Origin: Chryseobacterium camelliae
Lineage (GTDB): Bacteria; Bacteroidota; Bacteroidia; Flavobacteriales; Weeksellaceae
Direction of reading: 5' to 3'
DNA length: 64,000 nt
Assembly: GCF_002770595.1 (NCBI RefSeq)
Contig: NZ_CP022986.1
Coordinates: 186,001 to 250,000, forward strand
The position numbers were made by a program, and so were the translations under genes. The notes under the pieces were generated by a model. The model was not told the origin of the DNA. It did not search any database and saw nothing but the letters and a program-made list of their open reading frames with translations. Shown here in pieces: positions 4,568 through 6,828 of this stretch (positions are counted from its first letter, which is position 1; each line of letters starts with the position of its first letter).

Positions 4568-5071
4568 ATGAATGAATTGGTATTCAGGAATGCCATTCCT
4601 GATGACTTGCCGAAAATTATCGAAATCTACAATTCCACGATCGCTTCCAGAATGGTAACGGCTGATACGGAGCCCATAACTGTAGAAAGCAGGGTGCAGT
4701 GGTTTCATGAGCATAATATGGAAACACGTCCGTTATGGATCGTGGAAGATTCAGAACACCATACGCTCGGCTGGGTCAGTTTTTCCTCGTTTTACGGCCG
4801 TCCCGCGTATAGCGGAACTGTGGAGGTGAGCATTTACATGTCTGAAGACAGCCGCGGAAAAGGTTATGGAAAACAAATACTGCAGTATTGCATTGGCCAG
4901 GCCGCGAAATTCGGAGTGAAGACGCTCCTGGGATTTATTTTCCTGCACAATGAGCCCAGCCTAAAGCTCTTCAGGCATTTCGGGTTTGAAGACTGGGGCG
5001 TATTTCCGGATGTGGCTGTGCTGGATGGAGTAGAGCGTACGCTGGTCATTGTAGGGAAAAGAATCGGATAA
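4568..5071 (+). CDS. GNAT family N-acetyltransferase (phosphinothricin-acetyltransferase-like)
   Basis: Cytosolic acetyl-CoA-dependent acetyltransferase of 167 residues. The start at 4568 (MNELVFRNAIPDDLP) is preferred to 4559 because it gives the standard beta-1/alpha-1 opening. Motif A, which binds the pyrophosphate of acetyl-CoA, is seen as VSIYMSEDSRGKGYGKQIL, followed by the NEPSLKLFRHFGFEDWG segment typical of the PAT/YwnH-like subgroup. These enzymes acetylate small amines such as amino-acid analogues. The substrate here is not known. Confidence 0.88.
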   Translation: MNELVFRNAIPDDLPKIIEIYNSTIASRMVTADTEPITVESRVQWFHEHNMETRPLWIVEDSEHHTLGWVSFSSFYGRPAYSGTVEVSIYMSEDSRGKGYGKQILQYCIGQAAKFGVKTLLGFIFLHNEPSLKLFRHFGFEDWGVFPDVAVLDGVERTLVIVGKRIG

Positions 5072-5115
5072 ATTAAATACTTCTGTCAATTCAAACAGAG
5101 GGTTCATCAGATCTC

Positions 5116-5228
5116 AGGAGCTGATTCCCGCTTTCACTACTCGCTTTTCAGCTTATTTGCGGCGGCAAAGCCGCCGCAAATAAGCTGAAAGAGCTCAGAC
5201 AGGCCGTTCAATCGGGGCTAAGCTGCAG
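5116..5228. repeat. Nested inverted-repeat element in a gene-free stretch (5072-5454)
   Basis: The centre is a perfect 21-bp stem (5146-5166 with 5170-5190) around a 3-base AAA loop, rich in GCGGCGGC. Outside it a second stem forms between 5119-5130 (AGCTGATTCCCG) and 5213-5224 (CGGGGCTAAGCT), 10 of 12 pairs. No T-run follows, so it is not a simple terminator. The flanking AGGAGCTGATTCCCGCT and ATCGGGGCTAA blocks resemble a dispersed intergenic element I recall from Flavobacterium and Chryseobacterium genomes; that recollection was not checked. Nothing else is visible in this gap apart from the MATE gene terminator. Confidence 0.75.
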
Positions 5229-5363
5229 CCGTTACGATCACTTTCTCATTCAATCATCTAACTTCATCATATATCCTAATTGTACAACAGGAAGATGAAC
5301 TGACAAAGCTTAGTCAATTCAGTTTTACGGTAAAATCTTTTCAATACAGCAATGCACCAGCAT

Positions 5364-5392
5364 CAAAAAAAGGCAGCCACAAAGGCCACCTT
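5364..5392 (-). terminator. Rho-independent terminator of the MATE gene
   Basis: Read on the minus strand, AAGGTGGCC pairs with GGCTGCCTT (two G-T wobbles) across a 5-nt loop and runs into seven T. It lies about 60 bases beyond the MATE stop. Confidence 0.8.
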
Positions 5393-5454
5393 AATTTATA
5401 TCTTCTCAAATCCAGAAGCTGAAATCTATAATTTAAAATCTATAATTCAAAATT

Positions 5455-6828
5455 TTAAATGTCCTCCGCCTGCCTGATCTTCTTCTCAGACATATTCAGA
5501 AAGCGTTTTACGAGCATCACAGCGGAGATGGTCAGTCCGAGTCCCAGAGCGATCCACATTCCGAATGCACCCATCTTTAAGGTAACACAAAGGAAATAAC
5601 CGAGCGGAATCGTAATGATCCAATATGCGATAAACGTGTAGATCGATGGGATTTTCACATCCTGGATGCCCCGCAGTGAACCCAGCGCTGTGACCTGGAT
5701 GCCGTCTGAAAGCTGGAACAGGGCTGCAATAATCATCAGTTTGGAAGCCAGCGTAATGACTTCCACTTCCTCGCTTTTCGTAAAAAAGGTCGGAAGGACA
5801 TGGCGTCCGAGAATGAAGGTGATACCGCAGATGCACATGAAGACAAAAGCGATTTTCAGGTTGTTGATGCCTACTTTTCTCAGCTCCACATAATTCTGTT
5901 CCCCGAGCTTTCTACCGATCATTACGGTAGAAGCCACACTGAATCCGACGCATAAGTTAAATGTAAAGGAAGCCATGCTCAGCGCGATCTGGTGGGACGC
6001 AATATCATGTGCGGAAATAAGCCCGCAGATAAAAGCGGCTCCGGCAAAAGCAGTTACTTCAAAGAACATCTGCAATGCAGTAGGCAGGCCCAGCCTAACC
6101 ATTCTTTCAAACATTTTTTTAGAAAACATTTCAAGCTTAAGCGTGAAGTCTTTGATGTATCGCTGAGTTTTCTTCTCTTTCAACAGAACGATATACAGGA
6201 ATACTACCATGAAAATCCGGGCAATCAGTCCGGCCAGTGCAGAACCCTTTACGCCCATCGGCGGAAACCCGAAAAGCCCTTTGATGAAAACATAATTCAG
6301 GACAATATTGATGATATTGGCAATGATAGTGGCTTTGGTTACGCCAATGGTATAGGATAACCCTTCCGAAACTTCCCTCAAAGTCTGGAAAGCCATAAAC
6401 GGCACAATGCTGATGGCCATAATCGTAAGGAAGTCTACTGTACCCGGGACGATCTTTTCCGGTTGTCCGGAATGGTAGAGCAGAGGCATTCCTAACAATA
6501 GTACACCCATCAGCAGAATTCCAACGGTCAGATTGATAACAAACCCGTGGCTGAATACAGAATTGATGGTTGCATGGTCATGCTTTGAATGGGCCTCAGA
6601 AACAAGGGGCGGAATGGCAAAGGAAAATCCGAGCGCCAGGACAAACATGGAAAAGAAAACTGCGTTTCCCAGTGAAACGGAAGCCAGGGCATCGGCGCCA
6701 AGCAATTGCCCGACGATAATATTGTCAAAGAGATTCACCGAAACTTGCCCAACCTGGGTCAGCATAACGGGGAGGGCCAGGGTAAGACATTCTTTGGTAT
6801 AGTTCTTATTTAAAAAGTTCATGATCAT
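5455..6828 (-). CDS. MATE family efflux transporter
   Basis: Inner-membrane multidrug/sodium or proton antiporter of 457 residues, a normal family length. About twelve hydrophobic helices are visible in two similar halves. The first helix has ALPVMLTQVGQVSVNLFDNIIVGQLLGADALAS, and the second half opens with a matching GLPTALQMFFEVTAFAGAAFICGLISAHDIASHQIA. The start may be the ATG at 6828 or the one two codons later (6822). Its upstream neighbour ends at a terminator, so it is probably transcribed alone. The substrate cannot be told from sequence. Confidence 0.92.
   Translation of the reverse strand: MIMNFLNKNYTKECLTLALPVMLTQVGQVSVNLFDNIIVGQLLGADALASVSLGNAVFFSMFVLALGFSFAIPPLVSEAHSKHDHATINSVFSHGFVINLTVGILLMGVLLLGMPLLYHSGQPEKIVPGTVDFLTIMAISIVPFMAFQTLREVSEGLSYTIGVTKATIIANIINIVLNYVFIKGLFGFPPMGVKGSALAGLIARIFMVVFLYIVLLKEKKTQRYIKDFTLKLEMFSKKMFERMVRLGLPTALQMFFEVTAFAGAAFICGLISAHDIASHQIALSMASFTFNLCVGFSVASTVMIGRKLGEQNYVELRKVGINNLKIAFVFMCICGITFILGRHVLPTFFTKSEEVEVITLASKLMIIAALFQLSDGIQVTALGSLRGIQDVKIPSIYTFIAYWIITIPLGYFLCVTLKMGAFGMWIALGLGLTISAVMLVKRFLNMSEKKIRQAEDI

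Follow-up and report, generated by a model that had tools for sequence, protein, structure and literature searches.

Integron attC sites, which occur in cassette arrays beside an integrase gene and have a core of the GTTRRRY type, consist of imperfectly paired arms enclosing a variable hairpin at the tip and could fold as single strands. REP elements carry an invariant GTAG or CGTC adjoining the palindrome, and pneumococcal BOX repeats combine conserved ends with a variable middle. The element described here shares with attC the paired arms enclosing a variable hairpin; it differs in occurring as single dispersed copies, in which neither a cassette array nor a GTTRRRY-type core was noticed. 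REP and REPIN sequences with their RAYT transposases, as described in parts of PMC2817692 and PMC3116915, resemble it in being short, extragenic, palindromic, and multicopy and in having no gene of their own, whereas here the link to a Y1 gene is missing and the interior varies while the slots persist. The pneumococcal BOX, RUP, and SPRITE families (part of PMC3049150) are likewise small dispersed repeats, but of another sequence and another bacterial group, and in the present element the middle is a hairpin that is swapped as one unit. Template-switch maintenance of hairpins (parts of PMC8794818 and PMC7202029) offers a route to perfectly paired long stems, which explains perfect stems but not wholesale exchange between slots. 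The closest relative is Flavo-1. In part of Weinberg et al. 2010 (PMC2864571), it is a Bacteroidetes motif rated as probably an RNA and probably not cis-regulatory; a section of a review (PMC9029176) ranks it with the Rfam sRNA families of highest abundance. In a portion of a Flavobacterium psychrophilum transcriptome report (PMC9723704), Flavo-1 hits occur in sense and antisense positions alike, and many fall outside transcripts.

The window analyzed here is a 64,000-base stretch (positions 186001-250000) of the 4,376,354-base single-contig genome of Chryseobacterium camelliae (G000). The element begins 45 bases past the GNAT stop codon (stop at 5071; Table 1). A preliminary description had reported a perfect inner stem with no T-run behind it, and indeed all 21 pairs form around a 3-base loop and no T-run is visible by eye 3' of the hairpin. 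Its outer stem (5119-5130/5213-5224, with 10 of 12 pairs) needs correction: only 9 of the 12 pairs are Watson-Crick, and 10 are reached if one T-G wobble is allowed. The outer stem backed by comparison is the one in Table 1, with six of seven positions paired, and the outermost AGCT/AGCT pairing (5119-5122/5221-5224) does not hold across copies, most others having GGGGCTA followed by other letters. Folded as single-stranded DNA, region 5112-5230 reaches -34 kcal/mol (z = -6.3), and its minus strand folded as RNA gives z = -4.8; in each case, none of 200 shuffles did as well.

Table 1. Features of the element and its neighbors (window coordinates)
Feature	Position	Strand	Remarks
Whole element, subtype A1	5117..5220	+	GGAGC ... 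GGGGCTA orientation; arms located by pattern
Left arm GGAGCTGATTCCCGCTTTCAC	5117..5137	+	Conserved in the 34-copy alignment
Outer stem, 5' side	5127..5133	+	Partner 5210-5216; one C-T mismatch
Two-base purine-pyrimidine pair, 5' side	5136..5137	+	Partner 5206-5207; coordinates by eye
Inner stem, 5' side	5146..5166	+	21-bp perfect pairing; interior varies between copies
Inner stem, 3' side	5170..5190	+	Pairs with 5146-5166
Right arm GGCCGTTCAATCGGGGCTA	5202..5220	+	34-copy alignment; 5210-5216 is the outer stem 3' side
GNAT acetyltransferase gene	4568..5071	+	ORF; Pfam PF13302, PF00583
MatE-family transporter gene	5455..6828	-	ORF; Pfam PF01554; convergent with the GNAT gene

An Rfam scan placed Flavo-1 (RF01705) on the minus strand of the element (5120-5223; 28.5 bits; E value, 0.0014), the Rfam family being drawn on the strand opposite to the plus orientation used here. 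Because this score lies below the curated gathering cutoff of 42 bits, the window copy is termed a diverged relative of Flavo-1 rather than a member. Aligned to Rfam model positions 1 to 76, it has the hallmark Flavo-1 arms (TAGCCCCGATTG ... GCGGGA..AGC) with their paired structure, and it shares the overall structure and the occurrence in Bacteroidetes, its slot being present in named Chryseobacterium records. It differs in its score, the inner arms of its subtype (A1) scoring poorly under the Rfam model. Elsewhere in G000, copies do exceed the cutoff: the Rfam model finds 13 places at E values up to 10, of which 3 pass and 11 look real (two weak ones do not). Look-alike elements (subtype D and C-like) fill the same slot in other species. 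In the taxonomic family of the window, 123 of 148 genomes have an Rfam Flavo-1 match at an E value of ≤0.001 and 116 have one over the cutoff, with copies per genome ranging from 0 to at least 29.

We built a family model from 34 copies in five subtypes, named by their inner arms (A1, including the window copy; A2; B; C, which comes closest to the Rfam consensus; and D). The model gave 16 matches in G000, among them the window copy (G000:C1:191114-191222, i.e., window 5114-5222), and 106, 58, and 117 matches in the relatives G105, G202, and G217, respectively; as in REP elements, this is a short, multicopy, extragenic palindrome. No invariant GTAG was found, the GTAG-like stretch of the arms varying by eye in the A1 alignment. 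The preliminary description had likened the element to dispersed flavobacterial elements with a conserved frame around a variable hairpin, and the family bears this out, as the arms recur while the hairpin differs from copy to copy; other copies exist and their arms covary, the two points on which that idea had been made to depend.

The two weakest G000 matches belong to a second, related repeat family (TGGGCAGC or TGGGGCGCC ... GTCGGGCTGC or GTCGGGGCGC), whose inner hairpins are of the same kinds as those of Flavo-1. This second family was seen at loci L116 and L117 of the same genome and at L182-L184, L187, L202, and L208:14359-14443, with many copies in the genomes searched. A longer form, whose left end (TAGGAGCAAC) precedes the CCCGCT arm by about 40 bases and whose right extension is different, occurs at L164, L167, L173, and L176 in G105 and at L188-L203 in G202. 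Yet another repeat (GTCATTGCGAA...GAAGCAATC) lies inside the interiors of L150, L153, L155, L156, L161, L296, and L304 and also stands alone nearby (L062); these interiors give the impression that the loop has taken up a second repeat.

In the 34-copy alignment, standard pairing accounts for 97.8% of the eight arm pairs. In the outer stem (columns 14-20/101-107), 99.5% of cells are paired and two pairs have changed on both sides; the purine-pyrimidine pair (columns 24-25/96-97) is 92.6% paired and is shifted by one column in subtype A1. The covariation score of the arms was 0.418 versus 0.119 in shuffles (reached by 0 of 500), and sliding the arm alignment by one column cut pairing to 46 to 59%. 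Two of the five covariation measures were unexceptional, namely, both-side changes (reached by 78 of 500 shuffles) and further pair types (120 of 500). Two arm positions each show C-G, U-A, G-C, and A-U, and G-U is absent from all eight arm pairs. For the hairpins, 100 of the 106 G105 copies were parsed and the 70 with a clear stem were used; 39 stems are perfect, and alongside 1,023 paired positions there are 10 G-T, 19 A-C, and 22 transversion mismatches, with no excess of G-U (G-T versus A-C, P = 0.14). Selection on a one-strand RNA should favor G-U on that strand, and no such bias shows. Judged from these sequence comparisons, the family data appear to fit better with a DNA repeat than with an RNA.

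The flanking genes of 16 G000, 55 G105, and 35 G202 copies were compared across genera. One gene-gene slot is common to all three genomes and is filled by subtypes A1, D, and C (L110, L179, and L119, respectively). Two further slots are common to two genomes (L108/L146 and L117/L182), and others are shared across genera with different subtypes (L009/L090 and L008/L091). Seven G105-G202 pairs have the same left-side gene in the same orientation, against about 0.4 expected by our own rough estimate. Apart from such orthologous loci, no neighboring gene family common to the copies was found.

Within the genus, a 20-kb G105 stretch was compared with ten relatives. At the slot behind hemB (Pfam ALAD; the hemB slot), 8 of the 10 genomes shown (G225 being left out) carry the element, with five different interiors; the slot is empty in G217 and G149, where a target duplication was not visible by eye, and the flanks elsewhere are too diverged for this comparison. 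Slot 3 of L208 is occupied in all eight genomes shown (G149, G203, and G230 were not covered) by five interior types. Here G225 and G232 have near-identical DNA to either side of an interior that belongs to subtype B in one genome and to subtype D in the other. At slot 2, which holds a member of the second family, the left anchor is 99% identical between G105 and G217 and the interiors differ. The same stretch includes about 80 bases (L208:10475-10552) that are present in G105 and absent without a gap from G217 and G149, with no kinship to Flavo-1 noticed.

The window slot itself is held by a minority of Chryseobacterium, as 11 of the 60 loci found with the GNAT protein carry the element behind the GNAT gene and 3 of 20 regions do so in a separate set from the same genus (at least one of these being the same contig as L345). 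All 11 elements lie 8 to 116 bases downstream in one orientation, and eight GNAT loci of other groups lack the element. The nearest relative (L342) is 89% identical over the region and matches the window copy in its interior; counted by eye, 5117-5220 contains three changes. The remaining occupants are of subtype A1 with other stems (L346, L354, L361, and L364), A2 (L345, L349, L357, and L366), D (L356), or degenerate (L348).

The replacement of interiors was followed slot by slot between G105 and G217, using 55 of 106 and 70 of 117 matches, respectively, picked by score. Flanks identified a G217 counterpart for 46 of the 55 G105 copies (42 by both sides and 4 by one flank only). The interiors of these pairs are split: 18 of the 46 fall below 0.70 identity (median, 0.51) and 28 lie above it (median, 0.95). 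The left 100 bases have a median identity of 0.91 in both changed and unchanged pairs, and the right 100 bases have medians of 0.79 and 0.88 (P = 0.15); left-arm identity is 0.92 in changed and 0.95 in unchanged pairs, and right-arm identity is 1.00 in both. By eye, ten of the 18 changed pairs have switched subtype, and about eight have an altered hairpin within the subtype. The seven changed pairs in which both flanks reach ≥0.80 include L128/L299, with flanks of 0.98 and 0.98, an interior of 0.40, and 25 unaltered bases on each side, and L178/L291 (flanks, 0.96 and 0.95; interior, 0.45).

Some interiors recur at different slots. The flanks of L296 in G217 match those of L146 in G105, and its interior is letter-identical to that of L304 at another G217 slot. 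The G105 counterpart of L304 (L156) has a similar interior (0.92), and the tract shared by L296 and L304 stops inside or at the arms. This pattern is what slot-to-slot copying would leave; its direction is inferred and depends on which interior the L146/L296 slot held earlier. In G105, the interiors of L128, L134, and L146, at three slots, are identical to each other and missing from their G217 counterparts. The mobile cassette proposed in the preliminary description therefore holds for the hairpin interior, which is exchanged, but not for the element as a whole, whose slot is mostly stable between species.

We consider it fairly probable that the element is a REP-like, nonautonomous DNA palindrome sitting in a fixed slot, whose core would be overwritten by ectopic gene conversion through the shared arms. 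The palindrome would extrude or fold at the replication fork and be cut or stall the fork, and palindromes are substrates of SbcCD-like processing. Repair would then copy another element as a template, pairing through the arms, and fold-back or template-switch synthesis would keep the stems perfect. Serving as the homology for this pairing would keep the arms alike, and the slot would persist since replacement is confined to the inside; any host use, such as an mRNA 3' structure, would be secondary. Several points tell against conversion. Both 100-base flanks reach ≥0.80 in only 7 of the 18 changed pairs and the right flank tends to be less alike, so that some changes may be larger replacements or reinsertions; the within-subtype changes (about 8 of 18) could be mutation; and the 20 to 25 bases shared by the arms are short for homologous recombination. 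Conversion also does not account for the tendency of G105 copies to lie near stop codons (see below).

A rival reading, possible but doubtful, is that the element is a structured RNA of mRNA 3' regions, in which the transcript matters (for stability or for RNase III or protein binding) and different hairpins are interchangeable. Slots that persist in one orientation from species to species and from genus to genus would suit it, as would placement, for which genes were called as the longest ORF. In G105, 12 of 35 left ends and 0 of 22 right ends lie ≤15 bases from a stop codon (P = 0.002); in G000, G105, and G202 pooled, the counts are 17 of 67 and 3 of 46 (P = 0.012), and in G217, which is not independent of G105, they are 19 of 42 and 0 of 24. 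The preference is absent, however, from G202 (3 of 22 versus 2 of 17) and G000 (2 of 10 versus 1 of 7) taken alone. Tandem contexts lean toward sense (25 to 12 in G105, 16 to 11 in G202, and 6 to 3 in G000), but divergent contexts exist (8 of 55, 2 of 35, and 3 of 16, respectively). An intrinsic terminator about 60 bases downstream of slot 3, recognized by eye, implies that the element there would be transcribed. The suggestion of a structured RNA in the preliminary description keeps in its favor that Rfam files the family as an sRNA, and loses ground to stems without a G-U excess, arm pairs without any G-U, and the sense, antisense, and untranscribed hits described in part of PMC9723704. That the element is itself an intrinsic terminator is extremely improbable: a strong hairpin between convergent genes would fit, but the T-run is absent, copies occur in divergent and tandem contexts, and most relatives without the element have, by eye, a separate terminator-like hairpin by MatE, so that other hairpins fill that role. 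This hairpin (window 5350-5400; L052-L069) looks degenerate in the window. A T-rich stretch precedes the left end of the element; strict placement behind terminators was an impression from a few loci that did not prove general, as T-rich left flanks also lie beside 5' ends.

That a transposase acting in trans moves the element as a MITE or REP, and that repeated loss and reinsertion at preferred sites (T-rich and behind genes) mimic swapped interiors, is unlikely. The wide range of copy numbers, the T-rich left flank, and the empty hemB slots would agree with this, as would the correlation between Y1 transposase and Flavo-1 counts (Spearman, 0.52 in 143 of 148 genomes, five zero rows being left out); relatedness and genome size confound this correlation. 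None of 31 Y1_Tnp loci, however, had a significant copy within about 1.5 kb (two weak ones had E values of 0.098 and 0.28), Y1_Tnp matches are missing from 6 of 58 copy-rich genomes, no target duplication was seen by eye at the hemB slot, and in changed pairs such as L128/L299 the adjoining 25 bases are unaltered on either side. A RAYT-driven REP is thus unsupported, though the correlation argues against a flat rejection. The two Y1 transposase genes of G000 (L070 and L071) adjoin, by eye, other palindromes of the GGGCTTTAGCCC and ATTCCGTAGGAAT types. No gene-bearing copy was seen in G105, where each of the 40 exact right arms (20 per strand) has a left arm or model match no more than about 160 bases away; one left arm (726029) is partnerless among the matches listed. 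The Y1 loci without a copy and the lack of a gene-bearing copy favor overwriting by general recombination, for which a break or stall at the palindrome would be the trigger. It seems quite unlikely that a dedicated recombinase or nuclease recognizes the folded arms as one-stranded DNA, as with attC, and copies interiors between fixed slots, making a genome-wide pool of hairpins behind genes; the evidence does not separate such a system from RecA-dependent gene conversion.

The Flavo-1 family is already known, and its fixed slots with exchanged cores are the interesting part; no account of this behavior was found in the literature searched, most subscription journals lying outside it. On the comparative evidence, a family catalogued as a small RNA seems to behave more like a self-overwriting DNA repeat. 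If this is true, many annotated flavobacterial "small RNAs" would not be RNAs, in a family that has no known function, and Flavo-1 would offer a naturally occurring system, simple to score, in which to study how hundred-base repeats undergo ectopic conversion and how perfect palindromes are maintained.
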